Source: a virus
DNA: 28,339 nt
Direction: 5' to 3' (one strand)
Virus record (IMG/VR): IMGVR_UViG_3300010883_000304
Location: 1-28,339 of that record
Positions 1 through 28,339 of the stretch are shown in pieces (position 1 is the stretch's first letter; each line of letters opens with the position of its first letter). A program made the position numbers and the translations under genes. The notes under the pieces are model-generated. The model had not been told where the DNA came from, did no database searches, and saw only the letters and a list, made by a program, of their open reading frames with translations.

Positions 1-3000
1 AATAGTTAATAGTTGATCCATCCTCGCTAGTAAGCAACAATCGTTGGCCACCAATGAATATGTCTAACTCACTAGCAGAGGCTGGGGTTTGTGATAGTGC
101 GAAAATTACAGTACTACCATCACCTGTAAAGGTATTAGTGTGTACTGTGTCCGCATAAGGTATAGTTTGACTTCCGCTGGCATCTACCACTAGTGTGCCA
201 TCGCTATGGTCCTTAATTCCTGTTCCAAGGGTTCCACGTCTCAGTTGTCCCAACGTGTTTCCAGTCTTGGTAAAATATTCTATTCTTTCTTTGTCTAAGA
301 AAACTACACCCGGCATATTGTTAGATGCATCGGGTTCTGGTAATAAATTTCCGTCTTTCACTTGTAGTGTCTTGATTGTATCTGTCAAATCATCGACTAA
401 TTCTGTTGTTGCGTTCTTGCTAATACGTTTATAGAAAGTCCTGTTCAGCATGTCTTTGAATATCCTGAATCCCGTACCTCCTATTGCTGTATCTAGTGCA
501 AAATACATAACATCTAATCTATCTGTGGATAATATTGTCCTGTTTAGGATTGTAATGACATTACCACTTAGGGTGAAATCATATCCTTGTGTTAATTGCA
601 CACCCTTGAACCAAACATATGCGTATGTGGCATTCAATGGCTCAAATCTCAAATGGAATATGTTGTTAGTTTTTCCTTGGAGAACTTCTCTTCTCTGTTT
701 CATTCCAAGTGCGTTATTAAATGTTGTGACAGAAAGTACATCACTTGCAGACAAAGTTTGTCCGTCTGCTATCAACTGTGTGGTGTTTAATATAATATCT
801 GTGCCCTCATTGAAGTATTGATAATCTGTCAATGTTGTTATGGCAATTAAATCTGTGGACGCTGGTGCTGTTACGAAAACAATTCTGTCAGGTGCTCCTG
901 ATTGATCCGTAGTATTTGTTGCCGAGTCTGCTGTCGTTGTAGATACATCTGTCGTAAACACACCATTTCCAAGATCTATGGTGTAGTCAGTGTTTATAGT
1001 TTTCAACACTCCATTTATGTGTATCTTGATTTGCGAGGCACTGGTTATACTCTTGAGAGGATCTATAGTTGAATCTTCTCCAAGCGGTCTATCAAGTGGT
1101 GATCCTTCTTCATCAGCAGTCATTGTATGTGTGTCCGCACTCTCTGTGCCTGAGTCAGCCGTGTACGCAACATAACCCGCAGTTCCAGGACCTTGTGTTA
1201 CATTGAAACCGTAATTTACAGTAGTGCCATCACCTAGATAATAACTTACATCCGGGCCTCTTAGGACCTTACCGTTTGCCTCTATCATAGTGAGTGCTGA
1301 GAACGGTCCTATTGATCCTGGTGGATAAGTCAAAGTATATCTGTTAGTGCTTCCATCATATGTGATTGCCTGATTCCTGATGCTTGCGAAACTTCTAGTG
1401 GAAGTGGCGGATTTGTTGAACCCTGCGATTTGCACAAATGCATTCGCCGCCGGGGCTGAACTAAACGTCAACGTTACAGTGTTCGCAGTTGTTGAACTGC
1501 TGTAAGCCGTTGTCGGCACACCATCTATAGTTACATAAATGTCAGACACAGTGGAATCTAAATTGAACTCACCCCTAGTCGAAGTTGTAAATGCAACTGT
1601 ACTTCCATCTCCTGTGTATTGATCTAGAACTCTATAATTTTCTCCACTTATTGCAAACACTTTTGTTGACACAATAGAATACTCTGCAGGTGCTGTGTTA
1701 AATGTAATTGTTTTGTTACCAACATCTACTGTGTAGTCTGTCGTCAATTTTTTAACAACGCCATCCACCGCAACAGTGACCGAACCAAGTGTTCCTGGAT
1801 AGTCCCCAATGCTGAAAGTTGCTGTTGAACCTTCAACTCTGTGATTCTTTTCTGAGATAAACGGAACTCCTGATTCTGGAGATGTGTAAACTTTTATGTC
1901 TAGCGTATCAAACATTTGACCCGGGATAGTTTCTTCCGGTGCGTAACTGGTATCAGGAGATATGAAATCGTCACCTTCTAGAACAATGTCACTCGGTGCC
2001 TGTCCTAGTGCTGATGCAAATAATCCTCCCTGCACTATTGAGTCCAATGTCCTATCATCTGTTGGAGTTAACACTCCGTCATCATCAAAAGGAATAAATT
2101 CAACCAATGCATTTTCTGGCGGTACACTACTTAAAGTAAACGCAGTGGTAGTACCGTCTCCCCTAAATATTTCTGTACGTTTTTTCCTCGTGCTATCGTC
2201 TGATGACACATATACTTGGAATACATCACTCACAGGCGGAGCTGGCGTAATTGTAAAAGTAGCTGTAGATCCATCTGCTCTGAACGCCTGTATCCTAGAA
2301 TCTCCATAATTATCAAATGGGAAATCATACCAACCTGCTTTGTCCCAACCGGCTTCTTGCGAGAATAATAATCCTGTGACCATTGTTCCGCCGTAGTCAA
2401 CACCTGTCATAACTTGCGACAGTTCGTTGCCTGGCATTCCCGAGCCTGGGGTATAGAACCCTTTGGTTCTGTCCGCGGCAGTCAATCCTGTTTCATCACC
2501 GTAAACTTTGTACACGTTGCTGATATTATCATCAAATTTTGTAGTCGACGTAAAGGCACTTGTTGTTTTATAAAGTTGGTTCTTGTATCTTAATAAATCG
2601 TTATAAGCGTAAATGGTCGACGCTGTCCAATCAACCACTCTCGATGTGCTAGATACCCTATCAAATTTAATTGTTGTGTTAAAATCTCTTACAAGATCAT
2701 TTGATAAGTTTGCATATGCTCTTGCTGTGTCTGTTGGGGTCGCTCCGTCATCTGCACCACCAGTCAATACTACCATTGGTGTTGCCTGGTAATTTGCACC
2801 AATTCCTGTGACTGTGATCTTTGTTACTGTACCACCAACCACTGTGGCTGTGGCAGTAGCCGCTGTTGTAGAAGGCGTTGTGTACATTTTAAATGCACCT
2901 GAGATTGTTGCCTGTGCTGTGATACTTGTACTTGGACCATAAAACGTAGGTGCGTAACCGTCAAACCTGTAGCTGTTTGTTGAACCTGTTCCACCATTCT

Positions 3001-6000
3001 GTTGTGCGTCATATAGTTTTGCCTGTGTTTCACTGCTGAACAACGGATAGAAATAACCATAAGTTCCTGATGTGGCACCACTAGTGCTTGTTGCTAATAT
3101 TTGGAATGGTCCTGTTGAACCGGCTGTACCACCTACTATTGTTACTGTCGGAACTTGGGTGTATCCAGAACCACCATCAACCACTGTTATAGACGAAACA
3201 TATTTCTTATGGTAATCATTCCACATTTGCCAAGGATATTCAGTCAGTTTGGCTGTATCGCTGTCAACATTCAATGGTCTAATCTTGCCTGTCGTGGCAT
3301 CATAGAATGTTGGACTGTCAAAGTCTGTGAATATTCCATCCTGTGTATCTGCTCCTGTATGTCCTAACCTGTATTCTCTTAATTTTGTGTGGAAAGGTTT
3401 CACTTCGTTTATGTAACTTTCAATCCAACTGTCTGTGCCTGTCGTGTATGTTTTTCTTTGATCTAGTTGTCTTACTGAGTTTGTTGCATTGATAAATGAT
3501 GTTTTAAACATCCAATCCACGTATGTCTGTTCCGAAAGCACTTTGCTTAATCCTATGAAGAATAGTGTGTTGTATTCTATAGCAAGAGCATTGACAAATA
3601 GGTCGTCTCTCAACGCTGTAAGAACTTTCCTCGTCTCAGTCTCTGGTTCTTGGTCAAAACTATTATCATCGAATGTGTCCTCACCACCGAATCCTGTTGC
3701 ATCTTGTGAATAATCATAAAGTTTAGTTGATAGTCTTATTGTTCCATTTTCCGTACCAACATTTGTGTACCCCTTAGATGTATTCATAAACAATTTCCAA
3801 CCACCAGTATCAGCGTTTGTGACTTTTACATGTTTTCCAATTGCAAGGTCAAGCGAGTCAAGTTCGTATTCGTATGTCACTTGTTTGTCTATAGGAGTAT
3901 TTTCATTATGGATCATCTCATGTATTTCTAGATCTGTTCCATACCAGTCCACGTAATTCCAGTATTTAGAAGTGTCGTATGTCTGTAATTTTGTTCTGGA
4001 AAATTCTGTGCCATCCCATGTGTATATTGCCCAAAGTCCATTGGCAGTTTCGTCTGCTTTTACTAAAAACTTTACTGTTCCTGATAAATCTCTTGTGTCT
4101 AAATAAGTCAACTCGGCGTATGTGTCTATACTAGTGTCCCATTCTAAACTTTGTGCAGTTGGTTCTGGATCCTTTGCATCTAAATTTGTAAGGTTAATTG
4201 TTCCACTCAATTGATATTTCTTTAAAACAGTGTTTGAATAATCTATAAGTTCTTTAAGTGCCGCGTATCTGTCAACATACCAGCTCTGTCTTGGTCTCGT
4301 GCTGTTTCCGTATTTCTCATTAACTGGGAGGTCTAGATCCGGAACAATGTCTCCAGCACTATTCTTACCTATTAACGAATCCCACCAACGTGATTCTATT
4401 TGTGTGCCTGGTCTGTAATTCTTATCTCCCTCTCTGGCTAGCTTCCAAACGGAATGTGAATCACCATCAAAAGTATTAGTCCTGATGTCAACATTTAACA
4501 CTATGTTGTCATTCACAAGATTGCTAACATTGTTCAACAAAAATTTATTTGTGTCTGTAACAGAGTAATATTTGTAATTGAATGCCCTAGGATTCTCTAT
4601 TAGATTTGCCACGAATGCTGTAGAATTCTTTCTGTGCAGGCTAACATGTCTTCCGTCATTAGTTCTGTTAATAGGTACAGTGGTTTTATTTTTTACCCAA
4701 TAGTAATAATAGTTTACTAATGAATTAAGTCTTGAATTATATCTCTGTATCACTGTGTACTTCGAATCATCACCATTGATTGCTTCACCGGATATTCTTT
4801 CCGACACTCCTTGCTGTGTGTTAGCACGAGAATTCCATTGACTAGGCAACAACGTTGACTCTGTCCATTCACATATGTCTATGCTTGAGCCTGGGAAAAT
4901 TTTGCCCCAGTTATTAGTTTTGTACTCTTGTGTGCTTTGTTCATACCATATCCATTTAACTTTTGACAGATCCCACCAAACTTCTCCTAAATGCTCAGCC
5001 GCCCACGGAGTCTTAACGTTTGTGTCTGTCCCAAAGTTGTAACTTGCAGGATCCCATGTGGTTTTAATATCTATCTCCCTGTCAGCAAGTCCTAGTATCC
5101 TTCCCTTGATAGGATCATAAAGCTCGTAGTAATCTCTTATTTGTTTGCTCTGATTGTCAAATTCAAAAACCTGTCCTAATTTATCTATATCAATCAGTGC
5201 ATCTTCAGTTGCAAGATTTTTCCAGGCATAATCACCCTTCACATTTAGATCATAACAGTTGACCGTTCCGTCATTGGCTATTTTAGAACTTCCATCGCTG
5301 GTGTCTGTGTTACCATCATCCTTAGGAGCTCCTACTAGCACAGTGTTGTCTATAATGCACACCCCTTTTCCAAAATCATCATTTTCCGATACGCTGTCTG
5401 CAACCAGGCTGTCATCTATAACAAATTTAGTGTTGTACATAGTTGCCGTGAATGCCCCACCTGATCCTGTGTTCATGTCGATGACAGAAGTGTCCTGTAA
5501 GTCAAATGTCGTCTCTCCAGAGTCAAATTTTATCTCTTTACGATTTGCAAAATTTTCAGCACCTATCACAAGCCTTGTACCTGCTTGGTTTATATCACAA
5601 GTTTTTCCAAATTTCATGTTAACTTGAACTTCAGGAGCCTTAATTGTTTGCTGTAATGTATACGTGTTTGTTGAACCGTCGGCATTCCATTTATAGTAAT
5701 AGACTCCTCCACCATCTATTTGCCCTGTGCTTTCATCGTCTACTCCTGGTGAGCCTATAATCAGCACAGTACCATCTTTACTCATTGTCATAGATTCTCC
5801 AAAAGCCGTATTCAGAGAAGAGCCGTCAGCTGAAACACCTGTAAGGGTCTGTGCCAATGCAAAAGAATTCTGTGTGCTACCATCATTTGACTGTGAAGTC
5901 TTGACGAATATCTCAACTTTCCCTGCGTTTCCTGGTGCTAATGAACTTACTGCCAATATGTCGCCATTGTCGTTTGCGGACAATCTATGCCCGAAACGTT

Positions 6001-9000
6001 GCCCCGATCCGCCATCTGGTGCGTCAATCGTGTAGTCCTGCGTCCATCTGTCGTATGTAGAACCGTCCGCTCCCACGCCCCAAGTATACATGTAGACCCT
6101 ACCTGTGTCGCTGTCGTGCCCTGGAGCAGAAACAAACATGTATTTCTGAGATGTGTTCCTATCCGAACTTGCTGTTGGTTCTGAAATTTTGTGTGCCCAT
6201 CCAAAATTCAAATCCTCGTTTGAACTTGAGCCGTCAGTCGGTGGACGTAGTGTAGTCAATGTGTTGTATTTGAACGTTGATGGATCCCAAAGGAATATTT
6301 TTATAAGTCCTGCGTTCAGTTGCCTTGTACTGCCATCGGAATCAAACGAGTTGGTGTATGGGCCACCTGCAACAACAAAATTCTCATCTGTGCTCATAGA
6401 TAATGATTCACCTAATCTTCCTGTTGTGTCATTGCCGGCTGTTGTGGTTACAGCGGATTCTGTCTGCAACAGTGTGCCTGCTTCGGAGCTTGTTCTAAAT
6501 AGGAAATCTATTGTTCCTTGTCCTTTGCCAGGTGCTGAAACAATTACTGATCTCCCGTCGTTCCGTGCTACAATTCTATGACCGAATTCTTGGTCTACAG
6601 TTTCATTGTCTGGTGCTAATACCAATTTTGATGTGTATGGATCCTGTTTCTCATAAACATGCCAAAGTCCCGAACTATCAGTGTCCGCAAATACCTTGTC
6701 TCCTTCTTTTCCAACGGCTGTTATCTCGTCTTTGTAATCAGAGAAATTAATTAAATCATTTACATTATCCATTGAGTCTAATCTTACTGATATAAATTTG
6801 TAAACCATACCGAAGCTGTCCGCAGTTGACCCGTCTTCCAACGATGGAATAAATCCTGTATTGCCTGTGTAATCTATTATAACAGTTTTATGGTCTGGTA
6901 CGCTGTTTACTAGGTAAACTCCGTTAAGTGTTGTTTCCTCACTATTAGATATTCCAAAGTAATCAGCAAGTTTTGTTGGTGTTGCCGCAGTAAGTCCATG
7001 AGAACCTGTAAATGTAATCTCTAACTGTGTAACAGCGTTCAAAGTTTTAAGTGAGGCTATTTTGAAATTACCTGACGTCAATCTAAAAACGTCCCAATCT
7101 TTGTTGCTCTTGTTTGCTACCCATACTAAATCATTTGCTGTAATGGCATTCATATCTAGGTTTGTGATATCGGTTATGTCAAACGCTGTGTGTTGCACCT
7201 GATTCAACTGTGGATATCCTGCTGTTTGATAAATCTGTACTGTATCTCTGTCTACTCCTGCTTTTGAGTAGTCTACTCTACTAAATGTAGTTGAGGCAGT
7301 ATAATCTATTGGCTGGTGATATAAATCCGTTTTGGCTATGTATTTGGATCTTGAGTATTCGACTGAATCATTTGACGTGTCAAATATTTCCATGCTTTGT
7401 GGATCTGCTGTGATCTCATTATCTCTGAGAGTTATCTGTATGTTCTCTATGGAGTCAGTGTTTCCAAAATTTCCTGTCCTGATCATCCATTCTGGATACA
7501 GATCCAATGTGATGTCCTCTCCTTCATACTTGGCTTTCAAAAGTTTGTCTACGGCGTTCTGTGTTCCTTTCTCTCTAGTGTAACCTTGAAAGAATTTGTA
7601 TTGTGAAACATCGTTTACAAAAAGATTTTCTAGATAATCTCTTGATTGGTAACCTATAAGTCTCTGTGCCAATTGTTGTTGTGACTCGTCAAAGTTGTTG
7701 GATTCTAATTCATAGAAATCATTGAACTGTGATATTTTGTAATCGAAATTTGGGATCAATTGTGGTGCTGGTTTCTCTTGCTTTAAAATCCAATTTGCAC
7801 TTTCAAATTTTGCAGTCGAATTATGATTTATCTTGGCTACGTAAAACCTTCCTTGGTACTCGATCGAGTCTCCTATGCTGTAATCTGTGTTGGCTATCCA
7901 ATAAGTGACCTGAGCGGCGTCAAAAACAAATCCTGGTGCGTAGTAATCTCCATTCCACCCGGCTGTCTTCCAACCAACAAGTTTCAACCTCTGCTGTCTG
8001 AATCCTGTGTACGGATCAAATATGATGTCTGAGAAAACTGTGCTGTTATCGAATAGTAAAATGTGTTCTTTCTGCACAGTGTTTAGAGCCACGCTGTAAA
8101 GACCTGTGTCCTGTGATTTAATTGCCATCTCGAATGTCTTGCCTATCCTTTTAGTAGATATATTTCTTATGTCTATCTTCCTACCACCTGCATCAAGCAA
8201 TGAATAATCTCCCGCAATATTTCTTAATTTACCAACAACGGAATCAGCTGTATCTAATTCAAACCCATCAGCGGCCGGTGATACCGTTACTGCAGAGCCT
8301 GGTGCCCATTCCTGCGTGGTCCAAAACAAAAATTCTCTCACTGCATTTGCCCAATTCAATGTTTCCTTCAGTTCATTTGAATACTTGTTAAATTTGAAAC
8401 CTTGGTCTTCCAACCAATGACCGTAACCAAAGAGAAAGTCTGCTACATCCTGTATTGTTGAGAATACATAGCCATAAGGTATGGTCTGTGTTGTTTCTTG
8501 ATAGTTGTTGTATCGTTTTACCTCCACTGCTCCTGTCACTTTTACTGCTTTATGCGTGGTAGTCTTTACAGGATAGTTAAATCTAAAATACGGTTTTGTT
8601 GTTGAATAACCTAAAACTTTGTAACCACCTAATAAAGACGAGCCATCAGCACCAATGTCTGTATTTTTCTCTACCAATACGCCCGAGTAAGAGAAACTTT
8701 CTACAGGGTTTGATGTACGGAACAATATCTTGTAGTTCTCATCAGGTATAAATTTTGAACCTGATGTTGATCCTGGAGATACAGAATCTGTCAACACTTT
8801 CAAATTTTCTTTATCTGTAAATCCTCCCAGCTTGTATGCCATCTGCACTGTTAAATTCTTCATCTTGTTGTAATAGAATGTTGTAATGTCCAAATTTCTA
8901 GAAATCAAATAGTTCACCACAAAATTTTGGTAACCTGCTGTCTGGTATCTCGTTGTTACTCCTGTGTTATTGTCAATCACGGTTTCAAGGTGATACTTAG

Positions 9001-12000
9001 ATGTGGCAAGTGTCTTCCTAACACCTGTGTCTACATCAATCTGATTTCCAGCTGTGTTTGTTGTCAGCCTAGAAATATCAAAGAAGTTAGAGAAAAACCT
9101 AGCAGGTTTGGTTAGTGCCAGTGTCTTTATCACAGTGAATGGATAAGCACTAGATCTACGCCATGCCGTTTCGGCAGGTGCTTGGTCTCCAAACTTCCAC
9201 GAGAACTGTCTACCCGGTATGTTGTAATCACCGATGAGTCCTGACGCAAGTGGATCTAACAGATTTCCCGAGGCATCGACCGGAAGATAAGTTTTAATTT
9301 CTGGCTTTCCATACCTGCCTGTTGCTGTCGCTATTGCTGTCCATAAAACATCATTGGCAGACGTATATGGTGCTGGGCCATAAAGTGTCTCCCAGTCCGT
9401 TGGCTTCTCTGAATGCCCTAACATCTCCCATGGTCTCACATGCGGAGCATCTGTGTCATAAAAGTATTTGTATATGCCTCTCCAGTATCCCGGTAGCTTT
9501 TCACTTGGTGTTATCCTATTAGTTGAAAAAGCATAATTGTATGTAAATGGAGATCCTTCAACAAACTGCTTGTTATTAATGTATTGCACATTGTTTCTGC
9601 CTGCCCATGTGTAGAAGTCTGTGCCCATTATATCGTTGACTTCTAACAGGGTGTATTCAGTTGATGTAAACGCTGTTGGTTTTACATCATGTATACCTAA
9701 CAATGTGCTGTCATAGGCAACCTTACAGTTGTTGTAAATTCTTTTCTCAAGTTCTAAAATTAAATCGTCTCTTTCATCTCCGTAGGCTTTGATAAATGAT
9801 CCATCGTGCCTTCTGATCATTGTTGTGGTTGTGATGTATGTGTCGTCTGTAAAAAGTTCAGGTTTGTATTTTGGATACATTCCAAGTTTGGTAGGTGTAG
9901 TAGGCATGTAACTGCCAGTAGTATCAGGATAGTCTTTTATGACAACCTTGTCACCCTCGGCAAGTGTTGCTGATATTGTAATACTGTCATCTGTCGTGCT
10001 AAAAGTGTAATCTGTATCAACTAACAACTGCACATCATTTAGATACACATAAACCGCCCTGTTACTTGTCTTGTTTATGTTGTGCTGTGAGTCTAGTGCA
10101 TAGTCTGTCTGAGAAGATCCTAGCACTGTGTATGATCTCGTACTCACGTTCTCTCCCCATCCTATCATGTCTTCGTAGTAGAATGGGAAACTAGAGTTTC
10201 TACCCTGTATAAATGATGTAATAATTTCATCAACTCTGTCGGTGGCAACTCCCTCGTATGCTGTACTTGTTGCGTGAGTAAGAAATGAATTATACCATTT
10301 TTCATATTCCTGACTGTTGTACTCGATGGCAGTAATCACATTAGATTCCTGATCTATCAGTCCAAACATCGCCGGCAATAACGGTCCTTCGTGTTGGTGT
10401 ATGCTACCTCCCTTGAGCCTTGTGTCTGGCTTGTCTCTTAAATTGGATGAGCCTAGGACTGATCCTGTTAAATCTTGATTTTTATCAAATATATCAGCAA
10501 GGTGTTTTAAAATTTGTCCATACGTAAATGTACCTAACTGCTGGTTCAAACTGTTAGTAGATAAGTTTTCAGGTACTTCATAGATACCTTTGGTCTCTAA
10601 TTTGTCAGCACTGCTATAACCAGCAATACGCACTTGATCATCAACTGATAACTCCTTAACAAATTTTACGTACTTGTTCGTGGCACCATCGACTAGAGTG
10701 TAATCTGTTGTCACTGTCTTCCTTATACCGTTTACTGAAATTGCAATTTCTAAGTCTGTAAGTGCAACAGAATTTTTGTAGAAGTCAATCGGGAACAACT
10801 GTTTCTCAGTGTCATTTGCTTTTATTGTTCGTATAACCCTCTGTTTGCTTTCTGTTGTCCTTTTGACCCAAGCACTCTTAGAGTTATGTGTGTCTCTGCT
10901 TGTCGTGTAGTGTAGATGACCTTCTGCAAATTTTTTAGTAATTGTTTTTGTTCCAGACTTGTATGTAAATGTACCGTTGGTGTGATCTGATTCAAAAACT
11001 ATGTCACCAACGTTGTTTATTGTATTGTATTTTACTTTGATCCCTAGTACAGTGTCTGTCGTTGCTGTGTCCGAAGTTGCAAATTCGAAAACCTTGGCTC
11101 CTGTGAATGTTGAATTTGGGTACGTTGTTGTGTTATCAAAAGATATGTGGTTATCATCAAACATACCAAATAATGGCTGTTGGTTAACTCCTGTTTTCTG
11201 TTGTGATTCTACCCAAGCAGTCGTGGCACTATCGAAGTAAAAAGTCTTTCCTTGGTTCACTGTACCAAATTCAACAAATATACTGTCCTTGTTTACTGGA
11301 GTTCCGTCGACTTCCTCGGTCAATGAAATAACCTGTGAACTATCTCCTGCGTTTGCAAAACTTACATTGTATATCCTGTTTTTAACTATGGGGTCTGTGT
11401 CGGCGGCAAATATTATTCTCATTCCTTCGGTAAGTGCGATACCATCGACTATGTAACCAGTCTGTAGAACAACATCACTGAAAGCATCAGTCGTTACTGT
11501 ATCAAACAGTGTAACAGACTTCTTGGCCACTGCTCCGTGATTGTATAATGCAAGTCCAGAATCAAATTCTATTATAGGTCTCTTTGCCCTGTCGTCCTCA
11601 TTAAGAGTCGGTGTGAAACCTCCTACCCTAGCAGTTTCATCTATGACAGATTTATGGAACCATCTGTTATACCTGGACCATGCATTTTGATCAATAGAAT
11701 CTCTTTTTATTGTGATGTAATCTCTAGTCTCTGGTGTAAAGTATGATTTTGCGTAAGGTCTTGTGTCATAACCTTTTGAATCAAAAAGTATTGTACTTTC
11801 AGTGGCATAACTGGCTGGTGTAATCAAGTCGTCAACATCGGTCAAGGTTATGGAGTCTCCAACCCCCTCCACGTAATATTCCTTATCTTGATATTCTGTA
11901 GCAACTAAACTATTAGTGAATTTCACTTTCATTCCATTGGAAAGATCTAATGTTCTTATGCTGTAATTTTTTGTTCCTATTATCTCGTCCTCAGGATTTA

Positions 12001-12901
12001 TTTTTGCCGTGGTAGTGACATCTCTGATTTGTAATATACCGTACATGGCATTATGGTTACCACACTGATAATACAAAGTGTCCGGTGTGCCTGTTGTAGG
12101 TACAGTAAACGTTACAGTGCCCTTGTCAGCACCGTTGTTTGTCACTCCTGTGGAATATAAAGTAGACGTGGAACCGTCTTCTGACAACATGCTCTTGTAT
12201 GGTTCTGTCATGATCCAGAAAGGATGTCCTTCAGCGTTTACATTAAATTTGTAGGTGTTTCCTCTATAAAGTTTTACTATAGGATTTCTTTCATTTTCTC
12301 TGTGAAGAAAACTATATGCCCTTGCCGAACTCCCGTCGTCTTTGGAAAGTTCAACTTTGTATTCTGCAACAACTGATGGTCCTACTGCATCTATCTCCAG
12401 AGACGTTGGACCTTCTGGTATCCAATAGTATTCTCTATAATTGATTAACTTGTCGTAATCAATTGCTGGATTCCAGGAGTACACTGTTTCCTTGTTCAGC
12501 CTGTCATGATTGTCTACCTTTCCTCCAAAGTATTTGATTTGGTTAATATAATCATCATAGGTTCCTGTAAACTTAACCTGGTCTTCTGGATTTACCGAAG
12601 TGGTGTCTCTGTCTGTGTACGTAACAGCAGGTTCCAACTGGTATGCCATCCTGTCCCTGTTAGTGGCGTTAATATATCTATCCGTTGCTAATCTAGTGTA
12701 GGCATCTTGCCTTCCTATGAAACCATCCAATCTCTCTAGGTTACCTTTCTGCACCAAGGGATCCAGTGTGCTTGACAGAAATCTTTGGTTCGTGTCTGTT
12801 CTGTAGAATGCAGGTAGGTGTTGTACAGTCCTTCTGTATTCGTTGTTGCCTTGTTTGACAACTTCGTTATTGGTTAATGCGTTTGTTGGATTATCAGCCA
12901 T
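1..12901 (-). CDS. Giant multidomain tail/baseplate structural protein, partial (C-terminus outside window)
   Basis: A single frame runs from the ATG at 12,901 to the window edge, giving 4,300 codons without a stop; the C-terminus is missing. The start overlaps the gp6 stop as TAATG, with AGGA five bases upstream. Visible modules in order: an N-terminal region with LPAFYRT near residue 30; a cupredoxin-like domain (about 200-293); long segments resembling the large virion structural proteins of marine T4-like phages as I remember them (for example WSRYNRWFHKSVID and EFLFWTTQEW); a WxxxxxYxxGDxxxYxGxxY segment at 1668; seven FG-GAP repeats (2095-2560); two GGxGY-type repeats (3236-3382); a second aromatic module at 3425; and tandem beta-sandwich repeats from 3535 onward. 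No signal peptide or membrane segment is evident. Position after gp6 matches T4 gene 7, so a wedge-periphery or host-contact role is inferred. Homology to gp7 itself is not shown. Confidence 0.9.
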   Translation of the reverse strand, partial: MADNPTNALTNNEVVKQGNNEYRRTVQHLPAFYRTDTNQRFLSSTLDPLVQKGNLERLDGFIGRQDAYTRLATDRYINATNRDRMAYQLEPAVTYTDRDTTSVNPEDQVKFTGTYDDYINQIKYFGGKVDNHDRLNKETVYSWNPAIDYDKLINYREYYWIPEGPTSLEIDAVGPSVVAEYKVELSKDDGSSARAYSFLHRENERNPIVKLYRGNTYKFNVNAEGHPFWIMTEPYKSMLSEDGSTSTLYSTGVTNNGADKGTVTFTVPTTGTPDTLYYQCGNHNAMYGILQIRDVTTTAKINPEDEIIGTKNYSIRTLDLSNGMKVKFTNSLVATEYQDKEYYVEGVGDSITLTDVDDLITPASYATESTILFDSKGYDTRPYAKSYFTPETRDYITIKRDSIDQNAWSRYNRWFHKSVIDETARVGGFTPTLNEDDRAKRPIIEFDSGLALYNHGAVAKKSVTLFDTVTTDAFSDVVLQTGYIVDGIALTEGMRIIFAADTDPIVKNRIYNVSFANAGDSSQVISLTEEVDGTPVNKDSIFVEFGTVNQGKTFYFDSATTAWVESQQKTGVNQQPLFGMFDDNHISFDNTTTYPNSTFTGAKVFEFATSDTATTDTVLGIKVKYNTINNVGDIVFESDHTNGTFTYKSGTKTITKKFAEGHLHYTTSRDTHNSKSAWVKRTTESKQRVIRTIKANDTEKQLFPIDFYKNSVALTDLEIAISVNGIRKTVTTDYTLVDGATNKYVKFVKELSVDDQVRIAGYSSADKLETKGIYEVPENLSTNSLNQQLGTFTYGQILKHLADIFDKNQDLTGSVLGSSNLRDKPDTRLKGGSIHQHEGPLLPAMFGLIDQESNVITAIEYNSQEYEKWYNSFLTHATSTAYEGVATDRVDEIITSFIQGRNSSFPFYYEDMIGWGENVSTRSYTVLGSSQTDYALDSQHNINKTSNRAVYVYLNDVQLLVDTDYTFSTTDDSITISATLAEGDKVVIKDYPDTTGSYMPTTPTKLGMYPKYKPELFTDDTYITTTTMIRRHDGSFIKAYGDERDDLILELEKRIYNNCKVAYDSTLLGIHDVKPTAFTSTEYTLLEVNDIMGTDFYTWAGRNNVQYINNKQFVEGSPFTYNYAFSTNRITPSEKLPGYWRGIYKYFYDTDAPHVRPWEMLGHSEKPTDWETLYGPAPYTSANDVLWTAIATATGRYGKPEIKTYLPVDASGNLLDPLASGLIGDYNIPGRQFSWKFGDQAPAETAWRRSSAYPFTVIKTLALTKPARFFSNFFDISRLTTNTAGNQIDVDTGVRKTLATSKYHLETVIDNNTGVTTRYQTAGYQNFVVNYLISRNLDITTFYYNKMKNLTVQMAYKLGGFTDKENLKVLTDSVSPGSTSGSKFIPDENYKILFRTSNPVESFSYSGVLVEKNTDIGADGSSLLGGYKVLGYSTTKPYFRFNYPVKTTTHKAVKVTGAVEVKRYNNYQETTQTIPYGYVFSTIQDVADFLFGYGHWLEDQGFKFNKYSNELKETLNWANAVREFLFWTTQEWAPGSAVTVSPAADGFELDTADSVVGKLRNIAGDYSLLDAGGRKIDIRNISTKRIGKTFEMAIKSQDTGLYSVALNTVQKEHILLFDNSTVFSDIIFDPYTGFRQQRLKLVGWKTAGWNGDYYAPGFVFDAAQVTYWIANTDYSIGDSIEYQGRFYVAKINHNSTAKFESANWILKQEKPAPQLIPNFDYKISQFNDFYELESNNFDESQQQLAQRLIGYQSRDYLENLFVNDVSQYKFFQGYTREKGTQNAVDKLLKAKYEGEDITLDLYPEWMIRTGNFGNTDSIENIQITLRDNEITADPQSMEIFDTSNDSVEYSRSKYIAKTDLYHQPIDYTASTTFSRVDYSKAGVDRDTVQIYQTAGYPQLNQVQHTAFDITDITNLDMNAITANDLVWVANKSNKDWDVFRLTSGNFKIASLKTLNAVTQLEITFTGSHGLTAATPTKLADYFGISNSEETTLNGVYLVNSVPDHKTVIIDYTGNTGFIPSLEDGSTADSFGMVYKFISVRLDSMDNVNDLINFSDYKDEITAVGKEGDKVFADTDSSGLWHVYEKQDPYTSKLVLAPDNETVDQEFGHRIVARNDGRSVIVSAPGKGQGTIDFLFRTSSEAGTLLQTESAVTTTAGNDTTGRLGESLSMSTDENFVVAGGPYTNSFDSDGSTRQLNAGLIKIFLWDPSTFKYNTLTTLRPPTDGSSSNEDLNFGWAHKISEPTASSDRNTSQKYMFVSAPGHDSDTGRVYMYTWGVGADGSTYDRWTQDYTIDAPDGGSGQRFGHRLSANDNGDILAVSSLAPGNAGKVEIFVKTSQSNDGSTQNSFALAQTLTGVSADGSSLNTAFGESMTMSKDGTVLIIGSPGVDDESTGQIDGGGVYYYKWNADGSTNTYTLQQTIKAPEVQVNMKFGKTCDINQAGTRLVIGAENFANRKEIKFDSGETTFDLQDTSVIDMNTGSGGAFTATMYNTKFVIDDSLVADSVSENDDFGKGVCIIDNTVLVGAPKDDGNTDTSDGSSKIANDGTVNCYDLNVKGDYAWKNLATEDALIDIDKLGQVFEFDNQSKQIRDYYELYDPIKGRILGLADREIDIKTTWDPASYNFGTDTNVKTPWAAEHLGEVWWDLSKVKWIWYEQSTQEYKTNNWGKIFPGSSIDICEWTESTLLPSQWNSRANTQQGVSERISGEAINGDDSKYTVIQRYNSRLNSLVNYYYYWVKNKTTVPINRTNDGRHVSLHRKNSTAFVANLIENPRAFNYKYYSVTDTNKFLLNNVSNLVNDNIVLNVDIRTNTFDGDSHSVWKLAREGDKNYRPGTQIESRWWDSLIGKNSAGDIVPDLDLPVNEKYGNSTRPRQSWYVDRYAALKELIDYSNTVLKKYQLSGTINLTNLDAKDPEPTAQSLEWDTSIDTYAELTYLDTRDLSGTVKFLVKADETANGLWAIYTWDGTEFSRTKLQTYDTSKYWNYVDWYGTDLEIHEMIHNENTPIDKQVTYEYELDSLDLAIGKHVKVTNADTGGWKLFMNTSKGYTNVGTENGTIRLSTKLYDYSQDATGFGGEDTFDDNSFDQEPETETRKVLTALRDDLFVNALAIEYNTLFFIGLSKVLSEQTYVDWMFKTSFINATNSVRQLDQRKTYTTGTDSWIESYINEVKPFHTKLREYRLGHTGADTQDGIFTDFDSPTFYDATTGKIRPLNVDSDTAKLTEYPWQMWNDYHKKYVSSITVVDGGSGYTQVPTVTIVGGTAGSTGPFQILATSTSGATSGTYGYFYPLFSSETQAKLYDAQQNGGTGSTNSYRFDGYAPTFYGPSTSITAQATISGAFKMYTTPSTTAATATATVVGGTVTKITVTGIGANYQATPMVVLTGGADDGATPTDTARAYANLSNDLVRDFNTTIKFDRVSSTSRVVDWTASTIYAYNDLLRYKNQLYKTTSAFTSTTKFDDNISNVYKVYGDETGLTAADRTKGFYTPGSGMPGNELSQVMTGVDYGGTMVTGLLFSQEAGWDKAGWYDFPFDNYGDSRIQAFRADGSTATFTITPAPPVSDVFQVYVSSDDSTRKKRTEIFRGDGTTTAFTLSSVPPENALVEFIPFDDDGVLTPTDDRTLDSIVQGGLFASALGQAPSDIVLEGDDFISPDTSYAPEETIPGQMFDTLDIKVYTSPESGVPFISEKNHRVEGSTATFSIGDYPGTLGSVTVAVDGVVKKLTTDYTVDVGNKTITFNTAPAEYSIVSTKVFAISGENYRVLDQYTGDGSTVAFTTSTRGEFNLDSTVSDIYVTIDGVPTTAYSSSTTANTVTLTFSSAPAANAFVQIAGFNKSATSTRSFASIRNQAITYDGSTNRYTLTYPPGSIGPFSALTMIEANGKVLRGPDVSYYLGDGTTVNYGFNVTQGPGTAGYVAYTADSGTESADTHTMTADEEGSPLDRPLGEDSTIDPLKSITSASQIKIHINGVLKTINTDYTIDLGNGVFTTDVSTTTADSATNTTDQSGAPDRIVFVTAPASTDLIAITTLTDYQYFNEGTDIILNTTQLIADGQTLSASDVLSVTTFNNALGMKQRREVLQGKTNNIFHLRFEPLNATYAYVWFKGVQLTQGYDFTLSGNVITILNRTILSTDRLDVMYFALDTAIGGTGFRIFKDMLNRTFYKRISKNATTELVDDLTDTIKTLQVKDGNLLPEPDASNNMPGVVFLDKERIEYFTKTGNTLGQLRRGTLGTGIKDHSDGTLVVDASGSQTIPYADTVHTNTFTGDGSTVIFALSQTPASASELDIFIGGQRLLLTSEDGSTINY
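2..2299 (-). repeat. C-terminal tandem beta-sandwich repeats with GDGST-type openings
   Basis: From residue about 3535 to the window edge the protein is a series of similar units. Several open with a D/E-G-S/T-T turn followed by alternating strands: the turn glycines are at 3544, 3583, 3691, 3766, 3850, 3892 and 4262. Some units continue with V-x-V-x-V-D-G-V, TDYT and a strand ending in APxxxxV. Unit lengths are uneven (about 40-110 residues) and some units lack the opening motif. This arrangement is typical of phage fibre or baseplate-appendage shafts. The series continues past the window edge. Confidence 0.6.
2756..3196 (-). repeat. Pair of GGxGY-type beta repeats in the giant protein
   Basis: Residues about 3236-3262 read ITVVDGGSGYTQVPTVTIVGG and residues about 3355-3382 read ITVTGIGANYQATPMVVLTGG, so two copies of a V/I-x-GG-x-GY-x3-P-x-V-x2-x-GG element lie about 120 residues apart. 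I have seen this type of repeat in other phage structural proteins. Its function is unknown to me. Confidence 0.55.
5222..6619 (-). repeat. Seven FG-GAP repeats (integrin-alpha-like beta-propeller) in the giant protein
   Basis: Seven repeats begin with FG (once LG) at residues 2106, 2163, 2233, 2303, 2367, 2431 and 2510. The spacing is 57, 70, 70, 64, 64 and 79 residues. Each has the FG-GAP layout: FG followed by a short strand, an N/D-G turn, a hydrophobic strand such as VLIIGSP or MFVSAPG, and then a G-x-V-x-x-Y strand. Seven copies are what one closed seven-bladed propeller needs. Known FG-GAP propellers act in adhesion and often bind calcium in blade loops; SANDNGD in the fourth repeat resembles such a loop. 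Confidence 0.75.
7757..7909 (-). other. Aromatic carbohydrate-binding-like segment of the giant protein
   Basis: Residues about 1665-1715 contain W1668 followed by IANTDYSIGDSIEYQGRFY. This is the W-x5-Y-x2-G-D-x3-Y-x-G-x2-Y spacing of small chitin/cellulose-binding modules (CBM5/12-like). A related segment lies at residue 3425 (about 2507-2638). The match is to spacing and aromatic residues only; sugar binding is not demonstrated. Confidence 0.4.
12023..12304 (-). other. Cupredoxin-like domain inside the giant tail protein
   Basis: Residues about 200-293 read as a plastocyanin/amicyanin-type fold. A strand of the form VKLYRGNTYKFNV is followed by HPF with His226, then TVTFTVP, then LYYQC with Cys280 and a C-x2-H-x2-M loop (Cys280, His283, Met286) leading into a final strand. 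All four classical type 1 copper ligands are therefore present in the right order. The C-x2-H-x2-M spacing is that of amicyanin. Ligand residues are seen in the sequence; copper binding and any redox or adhesive role are inference. Confidence 0.7.
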
Positions 12902-15900
12902 TAGTATCCTGATCCACTACTGCCGGAACTTGAACTCGATCCCGAACCTGTTGTAGTAGAGCCTGACACTGCTGATCCTGTTGTGGTGTTTGTCGTGGCA
13001 GTTGATGTTGATGTAACCACTGTACCGGATGATGCCAATTGATTGGCTCCCAGTGCAGTTATGATTGAAACATCATCAACGGTGGCCCCACTGATAAAAA
13101 TCTCGTCTGCCGCTGAATTTATCTGGAACAGAGACCCAAATGTCTGCCCTGATTGATTTGGCACAATCACTGCTGTCAGTAAATCTGGAGCAAGTTGATT
13201 ATGCACGTAAGCGGCTAATTCTGTAAAGTAAAAAGTATCTCCAAAATCCCAGTTGCTCAATGCAAAAAATTCATTTATAGCGGCGATCACTCTTGTTTTA
13301 ATGACTGCATCTGTGACATTGGTTTTTGTATTCTTGACAACTTTAAATGTTGCCTGTAGTAGTTCTTCTGCGTTTGATCCAAAAAGTATCTTGTATTTTA
13401 CAGGATGATATACAATCTGATCTGATAAAGATTTTAAAGGATTAAGTGTTCCAGAGTAATTAATTCTTAACTGATCCGCTGTTGACTCAGCAGGTTTTTC
13501 TCCACCGTCCTGTAACCATATTCTAAATAGGTTATCGTATGTTCTCTCTAAAAGATATATGTCAACTATGTTGGAAACACTAGGGTCAATCCTAGTCTCT
13601 TGCCCTGCGTGATGTTTGTATTGGAAACTGATCGAGCCTCTACCTCTCCTTGCTTGGTAGTCTGTTGTTGTTGACAAAGTATTTGTTGTTGCACTATATT
13701 TTTTTATAACGTTCTCATCAGCATGATAAAAATAAAACAACTGTTCGTCGGTGTATATTGATGCATTTAAACTGATAGATGATTCTTTTTCACTTACAAC
13801 AAAGTTGGTTGTAGCATATGGTCTGAATCTCTCAACAGTATCGTATGATATGTACTTCTCAAAGAAAATAAATTTAGTGCTTTCCGACAGTGTTGGTTCA
13901 ACTACTATATCAAAAATGTCTGGATTGTCTACTACTCCGTCGTCATCATCGTCATAGAATCCAACTTTTACTTTTCTGTTGTCTTGAAATCCATCTGACT
14001 CTGTCACTGTGTCCACAACCTGCCACGTTACAGGATAACCTATGCTGTTGCCTGTTGACACAATTGAGTTTGTTTTTAAAATTTTTACAGTGTCCTTGAC
14101 CGTTTTTCCTGTTTTGTAATCGTAAATTTTTTCTTCAACATCATAATGAAACTTATTCTGTGACTCCGATTCAAAGAAATAATCTAGTTTTCTGTATTGC
14201 ACTGTGTATGTGTTTCCATCATTAGTAAATTTGAACCACCAGCTGGCATCAGTGTTAGTTCCTGCTGTGCTACCAGCGTTGTTTAGATCAAACACTGCAC
14301 TCGAACTAAGATTTGTACTTGTGATCACTTTCCATGTCTCTGAATCTATATCAAATCGTAAGCCGAAGTCCTCGTATGCTTCGATTCTGTCAATTATATC
14401 TGCTTCCAGTGTTGTTGATAGAGATGTTGTAAAGGCAGGTATCACTGCACTGACTACTGCTCCGTTTGGCACTATGTTGTTTAGTGTGACTGGACCTTCC
14501 CCTGACTCTAAATTTCCTACTCCGCTGTTTGATCCATCTCCAGAAACTGCTCCTATTTTTACCCAAACTCTATCTTCGGCATTGTCGGTGGCAGATGCCA
14601 CTAATTTACCGTTTAGAAATTTCCTAGTGTCCGGTGATGTAAATTTAATTAACGCACCTGTCTTTGCATACTTAAAATTTGAAGTTGCATTGTCTCCTAC
14701 GGATAGTGCACCGCCGGCAGTGAAATAACCTGTGTTGGTATTTGTTGATGTCGACGTCGAATTCCATGTTGCAGTAAGTGTGCTTAAATCCTTTGTGCCA
14801 TATTTCAAGTAATAGAACTGTCTTGCATATGCTTCTTTTAATTTTGCTTCTACAGACGTGTCTACGGTTGACTGTATGTCACTTCTGTTGTTGTAGTTAA
14901 AAGTGAACTGTTGTGTGCTTTCTTCTCTGTACAACATTCCGTCTTCTGCAAAAACACTTACATTTGAGTATGCACCTGTTGGATCTAATATTTCTTTAGC
15001 TCTAGATATACCAGACGCAGTCCTGTTTACTGATCTAACTTTAACAATTTCTTGTGATGCTGACAGAGGCACAACCTGGTAATCCTCTGCTGTGATCATT
15101 CTGTTCTGTGAGTAGTACACTTGTGGTGCCTTCTCTTTGATGGAAGCATTTGTTTCTGTTGCCGCGGCGTTGTAGACGCTGGCTTTAAGACTCATCGTGA
15201 TAGTCAATGTTTGCTGTGCACCGTTAAGATCTGTGTATGGTACCACCAAATTTAATCCTTGCATGTCAGATGGCTGTATTGCATACTTGGCATTGTCGCT
15301 TATCCTATGATAAGTTCTAAACGATCCCAGCGGTAGATTAGAAAAGTTACCATCACCAAAGACAAGGTCTATAGTATCTTCTGCTCTTGTTACAATGTTG
15401 TAGGTGTTTCTTTCTGATTTTGCTAATGAGTTGTAAATTGCGTTGTTCCCTGACAGAGAAGGAATTTTTGTCCATTCTTCAGATAACTGTCCAAACTGAT
15501 CTAACCTGTACAACCAAACATCCGAATCATTGATGTTTGTAACATTTAAACTTTTTATGTAATTTGTTATGGCTGTGTCTACACGAAAATTTTGCTGTTG
15601 CATAACTCCTTGCTTGAAAAGAAAGAAGAACCCTGTATTGTTTGAACTGTCTCCTGAACCATCTGCTCTGTATGTGTAGGTTAGTCCTGTTCCCGGTACC
15701 GGTGATGACTCATATATCGTTTCTGAATTTTCTACTGTGCTTGGTACTATTTCGAATGTCCTGTTAGTGCCGCCTACTGATCTATTAAAGGTGAATACTG
15801 GTATGTCTAGTTGATTGGAGCTCAGTGTGTAAACCTCTGTGGTGATGCCACCTATCTGTGCTGACTCCCTAGGTTTTCCAAAAAGTTGTCCTGTCTGGTT

Positions 15901-16389
15901 TGCCGCGTTTAAGATTGCCGTAAACTGTTCTCTGTAATTAGAATTTGCTGAATCATTCCATATAATTGTGCTGTTTGCAAGGTTGGTTCCCGAAGAATCG
16001 TTAACATCCTGTGTCGTAGAAAGTGAATCTATTTTAAGTAATCCTGTAGCTGGTTTGTTTCTTTTCGCATTGTAGTTGATTAGTCTTGCTAATCGTAAAA
16101 CTGAGTTTCTTCTCTCCGCTGTTTCTAGGAAATTTTCCCTAGCATTCAAGTCTACCCTGAATGAAAGTGCCTGGGCCACATAAGCAATCAAATCTATCAG
16201 TGCGACATATTCTGAACTTTCCACAAAGTCATTGAAATCGTCTGGGTAGTTCTCACGGAGATACGCCACCATTGTTCTTCTAAGTGTTTCAAAGTCATAA
16301 CTTTTGAAATCGGCCTGTTGGAACGCTTGGTAGATCTTTCTCCAATCTTCCGCTACAAGTAATCTGTTTTGTCTATCTGTTGTGGCCAT
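12901..16389 (-). CDS. gp6: Baseplate wedge protein gp6
   Basis: Product of 1,162 residues, a baseplate-J/gp6-type wedge subunit; in T4 a gp6 dimer forms the inner ring that holds the wedges together. The N-terminus (LLVAEDWRKIYQAF, then YPDDFNDFVESSEY and an ALIDLIAYVAQALSFR helix) is characteristic of the family. The middle holds the baseplate-J region with ITAEDYQVVPLSA. The conserved C-terminal domain includes HPVKYKILFG and NWDFGDTFYFTELAAYVH. It is much longer than T4 gp6 (660 residues), mainly through beta-rich expansion in the middle. Residues 813-821 form an acidic D-x-D-x-D-G-x-x-D loop, and the last 41 residues are a Ser/Thr/Gly-only-like tail. No Shine-Dalgarno sequence precedes the start, unlike its neighbours. 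The stop overlaps the giant gene's start. Confidence 0.93.
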   Translation of the reverse strand: MATTDRQNRLLVAEDWRKIYQAFQQADFKSYDFETLRRTMVAYLRENYPDDFNDFVESSEYVALIDLIAYVAQALSFRVDLNARENFLETAERRNSVLRLARLINYNAKRNKPATGLLKIDSLSTTQDVNDSSGTNLANSTIIWNDSANSNYREQFTAILNAANQTGQLFGKPRESAQIGGITTEVYTLSSNQLDIPVFTFNRSVGGTNRTFEIVPSTVENSETIYESSPVPGTGLTYTYRADGSGDSSNNTGFFFLFKQGVMQQQNFRVDTAITNYIKSLNVTNINDSDVWLYRLDQFGQLSEEWTKIPSLSGNNAIYNSLAKSERNTYNIVTRAEDTIDLVFGDGNFSNLPLGSFRTYHRISDNAKYAIQPSDMQGLNLVVPYTDLNGAQQTLTITMSLKASVYNAAATETNASIKEKAPQVYYSQNRMITAEDYQVVPLSASQEIVKVRSVNRTASGISRAKEILDPTGAYSNVSVFAEDGMLYREESTQQFTFNYNNRSDIQSTVDTSVEAKLKEAYARQFYYLKYGTKDLSTLTATWNSTSTSTNTNTGYFTAGGALSVGDNATSNFKYAKTGALIKFTSPDTRKFLNGKLVASATDNAEDRVWVKIGAVSGDGSNSGVGNLESGEGPVTLNNIVPNGAVVSAVIPAFTTSLSTTLEADIIDRIEAYEDFGLRFDIDSETWKVITSTNLSSSAVFDLNNAGSTAGTNTDASWWFKFTNDGNTYTVQYRKLDYFFESESQNKFHYDVEEKIYDYKTGKTVKDTVKILKTNSIVSTGNSIGYPVTWQVVDTVTESDGFQDNRKVKVGFYDDDDDGVVDNPDIFDIVVEPTLSESTKFIFFEKYISYDTVERFRPYATTNFVVSEKESSISLNASIYTDEQLFYFYHADENVIKKYSATTNTLSTTTDYQARRGRGSISFQYKHHAGQETRIDPSVSNIVDIYLLERTYDNLFRIWLQDGGEKPAESTADQLRINYSGTLNPLKSLSDQIVYHPVKYKILFGSNAEELLQATFKVVKNTKTNVTDAVIKTRVIAAINEFFALSNWDFGDTFYFTELAAYVHNQLAPDLLTAVIVPNQSGQTFGSLFQINSAADEIFISGATVDDVSIITALGANQLASSGTVVTSTSTATTNTTTGSAVSGSTTTGSGSSSSSGSSGSGY

Positions 16390-16431: not shown

Positions 16432-16842
16432 TTAAGATAGACGCAACAACGAGTTTTCGTCGAAGTTGAATCTCAGTTTCTCCGTGATGTTCAAGGGAAC
16501 ATACGTTATAGTGGCCTGTATTGCTATGCCTTTGTCGGCTTCAGTTACCAATATTTCTCCTGTGGCAATACGTGGGTCTGCATTGAGATTTGCTGTGATG
16601 TCGTCTAGAATGGCTTCTTTTACTGCTTCTGTAAATGGTTCGAACAGGGCATCGTATATTATAGTACCAAATTCTGGATTCTCAACCCTTTCGCCCTTAC
16701 GTATGCTTAACCTGTTTAATAAGTCCTGTTTGGCACATTCGAAGTCGTACAACTTAAAGTTCTGGTTGTCCGCACGCGAACTAAAACCCTTGAATGTCAC
16801 TGACTTGTTGTTCAGTGTTGCTGATGCGTCATCGTATGCCAT
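16432..16842 (-). CDS. gp25: Baseplate wedge protein gp25
   Basis: Product of 136 residues, close to T4 gp25 (132), of the gpW/gp25 family that also includes type VI secretion TssE. It forms part of the inner wedge with gp6 and gp53 and contacts the first sheath ring. The family signature is visible as RKGERVENPEFG at residues 48-59, followed by ALFEPFTEAVKEAILDDI and a C-terminal beta region with ITYVPLNITEKL. The ATG overlaps the gp5 stop as TAATG. AGGAG lies nine bases upstream of it inside the gp5 coding end, so translation is probably coupled. The family was historically called lysozyme-like, but it is structural. Confidence 0.95.
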   Translation of the reverse strand: MAYDDASATLNNKSVTFKGFSSRADNQNFKLYDFECAKQDLLNRLSIRKGERVENPEFGTIIYDALFEPFTEAVKEAILDDITANLNADPRIATGEILVTEADKGIAIQATITYVPLNITEKLRFNFDENSLLRLS

Positions 16843-21649: not shown

Positions 21650-21949
21650 TTATATCCCCAGGTCTTTAAGCAGAACGTCCTTTTTGGGCAACTGTATGGT
21701 CACGCCCGGTTTGAAATCGTATATAGGATCTTCGATTGCATCTGGGTTACGCTGTGCGAACACCCACCACAACCTGGGAGTACCGTACAAGTCATACGCC
21801 AGTAGGTCTGGTCTGTACGCATAGGTTCGTTCTATCGTGTAGCTCTGATCATCCTGTTCGGCCGTCAGTGTCCTTGGATTCATTATGTCCAAGTGGTCTC
21901 CTGTCTCGCCTGTCTCCGAGTATGGTGATGTGTTTGAGTAGTTTGCCAT
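21650..21949 (-). CDS. gp53: Baseplate wedge protein gp53 (short form)
   Basis: Product of 99 residues matching the gp53 family core: YTIERTYAYRPDLLAYDLYG (residues 37-56), then PRLWWVFAQRNPD and IYDFKPGVTIQLP. The final part resembles a LysM-like turn. In T4, gp53 links neighbouring wedges and clamps gp25/gp6; T4 gp53 is about twice as long (196), so this is a reduced form. The ATG overlaps the gp48 stop as TAATG, with AGGA nine bases upstream. It lies in the same transcription unit as the other wedge genes. Confidence 0.88.
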   Translation of the reverse strand: MANYSNTSPYSETGETGDHLDIMNPRTLTAEQDDQSYTIERTYAYRPDLLAYDLYGTPRLWWVFAQRNPDAIEDPIYDFKPGVTIQLPKKDVLLKDLGI

Positions 21950-23928: not shown

Positions 23929-24951
23929 ATGGCATTCTTTAAAAAAGTAGCTTGTTTCACTGACATACACTTTGGGTTGAAAGGTAACAGTCGTGTACAC
24001 AACGATGACTGCGAATCATTTGTGAAATGGTTCATAGAGCAGGCCAAGGCAGAAGGGTGTGAGACCTGTATATTCCTAGGGGACTGGCACCATCACAGAT
24101 CAGCAACAAATGTTTCCACAATGAACTACACAGTGTCCAACATGGAAAGACTAGGTGCGGCATTTGAAAAAGTTTATGTGATAATGGGAAACCACGATCT
24201 GTATTACAGGGATAAAAGAGAGATCAATTCTATGGAGTATATTAGAAACATACCAAACATACATATCGTGAATCAGTGGTTGGTCGAAGACGATGTTGCT
24301 ATAATCCCATGGATCGTTGAGGAAGAATATAGAAAAATTCAAAAAATGAAACAGAAATACGTGTTTGGTCACTTTGAACTGCCGTACTTCAAAATGAATG
24401 CCATGGTCGAGATGCCGGATGTTGGCGGAATACAAACAGATCATTTCGCAGGATGTGGTAAGGTATTTTCAGGACACTTCCACAAAAGACAAATTATGAA
24501 AAACGTGACCTACATGGGTAATGCGTTTCCCCACAACTACGCAGATGCATGGGATGACGACAGAGGAATGATGATACTAGAGTGGGGTGGTGAGCCCAAA
24601 TATATCAACTGGCCTGACATGCCAAGATACATCACAATTAAAGTTTCGGAACTGCTAGAAGACCCAGACAAGTACCTGAAATCCAAGATGTATGTGAGAG
24701 TAACACTAGACATAAAAATTTCATACGAAGAAGCAAACTTTGTTAGGGAAACATTCATAGACAAATACAACCTAAGAGAACTACAACTGATACCGGAACA
24801 GGTGGACAACGCACAACAGCCAACAGTTGAAGTGCAAAAATTTGATAGCGTGGATCAAATCGTAATTAAACAGCTACAAGGGGTAGATTCTGAGGTGTAC
24901 GATAAGAATATATTGACAGCAATCTACAATGACTTAGATGTTACAAGTTAG
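23929..24951 (+). CDS. gp47: Recombination endonuclease subunit gp47 (Mre11/SbcD-like)
   Basis: Product of 340 residues, nearly identical in length to T4 gp47 (339). It is a metallophosphatase-type nuclease that works with gp46 to resect DNA ends for recombination-dependent replication and repair. All metal-binding motifs are present: DIHFG (Asp12, His14), GDWHH (Asp52, His54), GNHD (Asn88, His89, Asp90), GHFE (His148) and SGHFH (His183, His185). The C-terminal region, about 215-340, is the capping and gp46-contact part by analogy. The ATG follows the gp55 tandem stop by three bases, with only a weak purine-rich GAAGAAATGG ahead of it. Its end overlaps the next gene by 14 bases. Confidence 0.95.
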   Translation: MAFFKKVACFTDIHFGLKGNSRVHNDDCESFVKWFIEQAKAEGCETCIFLGDWHHHRSATNVSTMNYTVSNMERLGAAFEKVYVIMGNHDLYYRDKREINSMEYIRNIPNIHIVNQWLVEDDVAIIPWIVEEEYRKIQKMKQKYVFGHFELPYFKMNAMVEMPDVGGIQTDHFAGCGKVFSGHFHKRQIMKNVTYMGNAFPHNYADAWDDDRGMMILEWGGEPKYINWPDMPRYITIKVSELLEDPDKYLKSKMYVRVTLDIKISYEEANFVRETFIDKYNLRELQLIPEQVDNAQQPTVEVQKFDSVDQIVIKQLQGVDSEVYDKNILTAIYNDLDVTS

Positions 24952-25675: not shown

Positions 25676-25826
25676 ATCAAAAAGAAAATTTTGGAAACTA
25701 TTGACTCAAAAACCCAAAAAGAAATGGGAAACCAACATATCAGACAAAGATACTCCACACAGTGTATGGTTGGCTGGTTATAATAGATGGCGCAAATTAA
25801 TGGAAAAAGTAAATGCTGACAATTAA
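25668..25826 (+). CDS. Small basic tryptophan-rich protein, 52 residues
   Basis: A short frame starts with the ATG at 25,668, which overlaps the previous stop (ATGAATAG), and ends with TAA 14 bases inside gp46. The product begins MNRSKRKFWKLL and contains KPKKKWETN and TPHSVWLAGYNRWRKLME. It has four tryptophans in 52 residues and a strongly basic N-terminal half. I do not recognise it. Coding is supported by the tight overlaps on both sides and the way it fills the only gap in the unit; a nucleic-acid contact is conceivable from its charge. Confidence 0.6.
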   Translation: MNRSKRKFWKLLTQKPKKKWETNISDKDTPHSVWLAGYNRWRKLMEKVNADN

Positions 25827-27898: not shown

Positions 27899-27926
27899 CC
27901 CTCGACTCACAGTCGGGGGTTTTTTT
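27899..27926 (+). terminator. Rho-independent terminator
   Basis: A nine-pair stem (CCCTCGACT with AGTCGGGGG, one G-U pair) closes a CAC loop and is followed by seven T. It lies 27 bases after the H1-like stop. The complementary strand has no T-run after the stem, so it acts in the plus direction only. The T-run overlaps the stop codon of the converging gene. Confidence 0.9.
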
Positions 27927-28332: not shown

Positions 28333-28339
28333 ATTGGTA

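Follow-up and report, generated by a model that had tools for sequence, protein, structure and literature searches.

Gene content of the window and extent of the giant gene

The window, by which we mean the whole 28,339-base virus fragment analyzed here, carries genes for gp53-like, gp5-like, gp25 and gp6 proteins followed on the same strand by a single giant gene (Table 1). ORF listing and translation gave this gene an ATG start and a product of 4,300 amino acids that is still open at the 3′ end, where the record stops. Because the record is a fragment, the end of the gene cannot be read from its own genome. Over the same region each of the other frames contains 170–361 stops, as opposed to none in the giant's frame, and the chance of such a frame staying open was put at log10 P of about −130. 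IMG/VR was scanned with both ends of the giant protein, which yielded 160 loci. Complete orthologues were found in 20 independent IMG/VR contigs, each as a single ORF of 4,278–4,328 codons. They share the C-terminus ..FI(A/G)xxPTNxPE (in the form ..FIANEPTNAPE) and extend 63–65 residues past the end of the window, so that the window copy lacks about 65 codons and its full product would have about 4,365 residues. In all nine 500-codon blocks dN was 0.09–0.28 against a dS of at least 0.9 where estimable, values that place the entire frame under strong purifying selection. An earlier note on this DNA had described an uninterrupted minus-strand frame from 12,901 down to 2, of at least 4,300 codons, protein-like throughout and filling nearly half of the window. 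Each of these points was borne out, with the length refined and the stop, sought to the left of the fragment, now placed by the complete orthologues.

Table 1. Positions of the genes of the baseplate region and of the parts of the giant protein in the window.
Feature	Position	Strand	Giant residues	Basis
Giant, putative baseplate-associated structural protein, 4,300 codons, 3′ cut	2..12901	-		PHROG_10938 E=0
Core block 1 (LPxxxRTxT..., YSWxPxIDxDKxINxREYYW)	12392..12844	-	20-170	HMM
Cupredoxin-like domain, marine lineage only among relatives checked	12002..12370	-	178-300	PF25489, Foldseek
Core block 2	10172..11743	-	387-910	HMM
Inserted beta-module, VYLNDVQLLVDTDYTF...LAEGDKVVIKDY type	9935..10171	-	911-989	HMM, repeats
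Core block 3	7937..9934	-	990-1655	HMM
CBM5/12 (chitin-binding type 3) insertion	7781..7936	-	1656-1707	PF02839 E=3e-5
Core block 4	6962..7780	-	1708-1980	HMM
Family-wide motif FYxGxIRxKGTxxAxxKxLR...EEW	7484-7594	-	1770-1806	core block 4
FG-GAP-type repeat insertion	5282..6961	-	1981-2540	PF14312 E=2.7e-8
Core block 5	3362..5281	-	2541-3180	HMM
GGSGYT module, common to cyanophage giant gp7	2756..3265	-	3213-3382	hhalign P 85%
Second CBM5/12-like repeat	2531..2656	-	3416-3457	repeat evidence
C-terminal GDGST / beta-module run	2..2296	-	3536-4300	translation, repeats
gp6 baseplate wedge subunit, 1,162 aa; final base shared with giant's start	12901..16389	-		phrog_10646, phrog_219
gp25 baseplate wedge subunit	16432..16842	-		profile matches
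gp5-like hub/spike, 837 aa; OB domain, S74 chaperone-like C-terminal end	16842..19355	-		profile matches
gp53-like baseplate wedge protein	21650..21949	-		Pfam

The giant protein belongs to a jumbo-phage family with members detected in virions

The giant protein matched PHROG_10938 ('virion structural protein') with E=0 in five stretches, and the marine-family HMM matched eight relatives with E-values down to 1e-296. Judged by these profile matches, it is a marine member of the giant-protein family PHROG_10938 of RaK2-like jumbo phages, which includes RaK2 ORF070 and phAPEC6 gp245. The eight relatives are those of RaK2 (ORF070, 3,326 aa), GAP32 (GAP32_230, 3,341 aa), CBB (CBB_236, 3,340 aa), Vibrio 2.275.O (Vibrio 2.275.O_424, 3,771 aa), SCTP-2 (3,807 aa), PA5oct (gp355, 3,857 aa), Atu_ph07 (gp180, 4,449 aa) and Phosso (294, 4,555 aa), and further IMG/VR contigs carry family open frames as long as 4,747 aa. 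In PHROGs the family is classed as 'head and packaging', a category that lumps annotations together and is no evidence of where the protein sits. A PDB sequence search with the giant gave no match, and distant-relative scans for the family returned only the query phages themselves or nothing. Relatives are also present in MAG bins assigned to Pelagibacter, Porticoccaceae and Betaproteobacteria (contigs L199–L202); these assignments may represent misbinning rather than a host signal.

The gene neighborhood is conserved as well. The gp25-gp6-giant order of the window recurs in GAP32, CBB, PA5oct, Atu_ph07, Phosso and Vibrio 2.275, and RaK2 and GAP32 have its wider arrangement, in which the genes for the late sigma factor and for gp47/gp46 run on the other strand and are followed by gp53, hub, gp5, gp25, gp6 and the giant. 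SCTP-2 is an exception, with gp6 elsewhere in the genome. The gp5 proteins of RaK2, GAP32 and CBB carry a lysozyme domain, whereas Pfam detected none in the gp5-like protein of the window, which ends instead in the S74 endosialidase-chaperone-like region. On the plus strand, a 245-aa protein without a Pfam match is encoded at 24938-25675, between the gp47-like (23929-24951) and gp46-like (25813-27624) genes. A SegE-type GIY-YIG endonuclease (27925-28338, minus strand; PF19835 E=3e-35) adjoins gp46, and RaK2 has an endonuclease VII nearby in the order.

Orthologues of the giant have been found in virions by mass spectrometry. The CBB report gives 21 peptides and 7.7% coverage for CBB_236 (PMC5259590), phAPEC6 gp245 (381.9 kDa) was detected with 17 peptides (PMC7247149), and the database record of PA5oct gp355 carries the note 'ESI-MS/MS'. 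These detections support the view, implied in the earlier note, that the window giant is a virion structural protein. The published accounts of orthologues consulted here name no function beyond 'structural' or 'hypothetical' protein. The family itself is known, and what is new is the module set of its marine member.

A conserved core is interrupted by lineage-specific modules

Alignment of the marine-family HMM to the eight relatives defined five core blocks that keep the same order throughout the family and total about 2,100 aa, with lineage-specific stretches between them. Most invariant columns fall in these blocks, and identity between the marine family and the eight relatives is about 25%. 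Core block 1 is the most conserved part across the marine orthologues (88%), and residues 1389-1620 of core block 3 gave a high-confidence AF2 prediction. RaK2-type giants resemble the window giant in their slot after gp25-gp6, their size and the order of the five blocks, but the window giant has in addition the cupredoxin domain, the CBM5/12 domain at residue 1656, the FG-GAP repeats, the beta-module and a longer C-terminal tail with modules of its own. These marine-lineage insertions, set among the core blocks, bear out the distinct modules that had been noticed along the frame. In Foldseek the CBM5/12 insertion matched the chitin-binding domain of ChiA1 (1ed7, TMt 0.74). The FG-GAP-type repeats proper span residues 2095-2460, and the insertion that holds them probably forms a beta-propeller. 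These results settle one of the longest phage genes as real and describe its family as a fixed core with swappable modules.

A cupredoxin-like domain with a complete set of predicted copper ligands

Residues 178-300 matched PF25489 with an E-value of 1.1e-6, above the cut-off. The AF2 prediction of this domain has a pLDDT of mostly 60-88, and its best PDB matches in Foldseek were rusticyanin, nitrite reductase, pseudoazurin, plastocyanin and amicyanin (best E 9e-5), with all top matches being blue-copper or multicopper proteins. As modeled, the domain has a cupredoxin fold. It also resembles rusticyanin, pseudoazurin, amicyanin and PF25489 in having four putative type-1 copper ligands, H226, C280, H283 and M286, in the pattern H...C-x2-H-x(2-5)-M. 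We take their spacing to be of the amicyanin type, with a C-x2-H-x2-M loop. Unlike known cupredoxins, the domain sits inside a likely phage baseplate protein, and its copper site is a predicted one.

All four ligand residues are invariant in 21 giants and also in gp9 of P-SSM4 and of S-RIM2, a P-SSM2 tail fiber, podovirus P-SCSP2 and Bellamy 29; in the domain alignment they are among the 20 of 128 columns that do not vary. We found the module in 175 phage records, almost all of them from marine cyanophages. Neither the eight isolate relatives nor the distant IMG/VR relatives (L177-L184) contain the ligand motif, and our literature search found no report of a cupredoxin domain in phage tail proteins. 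Conservation of the ligands may reflect copper binding or merely a retained fold. A bolder and rather doubtful reading is that baseplate and tail-fiber proteins of marine phages whose tails are unrelated, from jumbo-type phages to T4-like and T7-like cyanophages, have a functional type-1 copper domain in common and that the virion tip bears redox-active copper. If true, copper at the tip could serve in contact with the host, as part of a trigger or to exploit host copper uptake. The exchange of modules between the tails of jumbo-type phages and cyanophages, especially of a domain with a complete blue-copper ligand set, offers a directly testable idea about metals in the tails of marine phages, one that seems not to have been reported.

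Relation to cyanophage giants and to the T4 wedge proteins

Giants also occupy this slot in cyanophages, namely the 'gp7' of P-SSM4 (7,312 aa, L197:7145-29083) and its counterpart in S-RIM2 (6,378 aa, L198:3977-23113). They resemble the window giant in lying between gp6 and the tail-fiber connector genes, in their size and in having the GGSGYT module, but they keep the T4 gp7 signature as a short island (P 94%, hhalign), and separate gp8 and gp9 proteins are present in P-SSM4. Core homology between the two kinds of giant was considered and rejected, since only the GGSGYT module aligned (P 85%), and GGSGYT is a mobile module. The kinship to giant proteins of marine myoviruses that the earlier note suggested failed for P-SSM4 and S-RIM2, whose giants are a different protein. 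Unrelated cores in the same slot with a common module indicate that two phage groups have placed unrelated giants in one position and have exchanged modules.

The earlier note had further proposed that one polypeptide may replace several wedge and appendage proteins, at the place where T4 has genes 7-10, and this survived in part. Profile comparison of slices of the giant with T4-like gp6, gp7, gp8, gp9 and gp10 gave nothing convincing; the best gp10 match was a 40-column beta-module (P 31%), and gp8 showed no homologous domain. The positive control, jumbo gp6 versus T4-like gp6, reached 62% with E 8e-5. Foldseek searches with AF2 models of residues 1-1190 (mean pLDDT 63) and 1200-1990 (mean pLDDT 54) returned no wedge protein. 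The first found only copper proteins, and the second, with its core partly folded, found only a chitin-binding domain and family members; because mean confidence was low, the missing wedge match says little. The part of the proposal that stood concerns the slot and the absence of the usual occupants. Profiles of gp7 and gp8 had no match in the genomes of RaK2 and Atu_ph07, both complete; in P-SSM4 the same profiles detected both proteins. The T4-homologue table of the CBB report, as excerpted, lists gp4, gp6, gp13, gp15, gp17, gp18, gp20, gp21, gp23, gp25 and gp53 and contains no entry for gp7-gp12 (PMC5259590). Classical gp7 and gp8 therefore appear to be missing from RaK2-type relatives, with the giant in their place, which makes functional replacement a reasonable reading; replacement of several wedge proteins by the giant fits the data. 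T4 gp7, gp8 and gp10 and the giant are alike in genome position and presumed role, but no sequence or fold homology between them was detected, and the giant gene is four times the size of gp7.

A proposed baseplate block and its alternatives

We favor, with a probability of about 0.75, the reading that the giant is a contractile-tail baseplate block of about 4,365 residues beside gp6, combining the conserved five-block core with exchangeable modules for marine hosts. The protein would assemble next to gp6 in the baseplate of a relative of the RaK2-like jumbo phages, and its core of about 2,100 residues would form the outer wedge, which T4 builds from gp7 and its partners. The loops between blocks and the long C-terminal tail would bear exchangeable beta-domains (the cupredoxin, two chitin-type CBMs, FG-GAP repeats and GDGST/GGSGYT modules). 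Exposed on the baseplate, these could adapt it to marine hosts through glycan or surface contact, and a metal-binding step may be part of that contact.

The strongest alternative is that the giant is a highly diverged and inflated true gp7 of the gpI/Tail_P2_I superfamily, with a wedge fold in the core and insertions making up the rest. Its slot after gp25-gp6 is identical, the family motif FYxGxIRxKGTxxAxxKxLR..EEW resembles the gp7 KGI motif FYSTKGIEASYKFLFKLLY, hhalign's best local alignment is exactly this motif pair, and this island clearly marks the cyanophage giant at that position as a gp7 (P 94%). However, the motif alignment is insignificant (P 0.2%, E 0.37) and is outscored by other tiles, PF09684 (Tail_P2_I) and TIGR02242 have no match in the window, and the low-confidence fold of the motif region does not match gp7. 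The KGT motif was accordingly rejected as proof of homology and kept as a lead, and we regard descent from gp7 as possible, with the odds tilted against it. The giant could also be a baseplate-attached adhesin or tail fiber outside the wedge, with another, unrecognized protein doing the job of gp7. Such a role would suit its many adhesin-type domains (CBM5/12, FG-GAP, beta-repeats) and the fiber-like genes that come after it. Receptor-binding proteins usually lose similarity fast, whereas the long core of the giant is still conserved at 25% identity among phages whose hosts differ widely, stays ordered between insertions and nearly always comes after gp6, so we consider this alternative unlikely. 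That the frame is an assembly error or readthrough artifact merging several genes, the possibility against which the earlier note had cautioned, might be read from the gene running off the contig and from frames broken in a few related contigs (L017/L117, L181 and L185, with an early end in L146; probably assembly or sequence errors), but it is reduced to a negligible chance by the nearly equal lengths of the 20 independent complete ORFs, by isolate genomes carrying the same single gene and by the identification of phAPEC6 gp245, a gene product of 382 kDa, among the proteins of virions.

Downstream of the giant, two related contigs (L061:11546-19411 and L005:11651-21210) encode a conserved protein of 242 aa (phrog_11259) along with several fiber-like proteins in a row. 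Three of the downstream fiber-like proteins have a common N-terminal domain (MAYxINKTxG...GKxYxGFGE.LNEN), which suggests that they share one attachment point.
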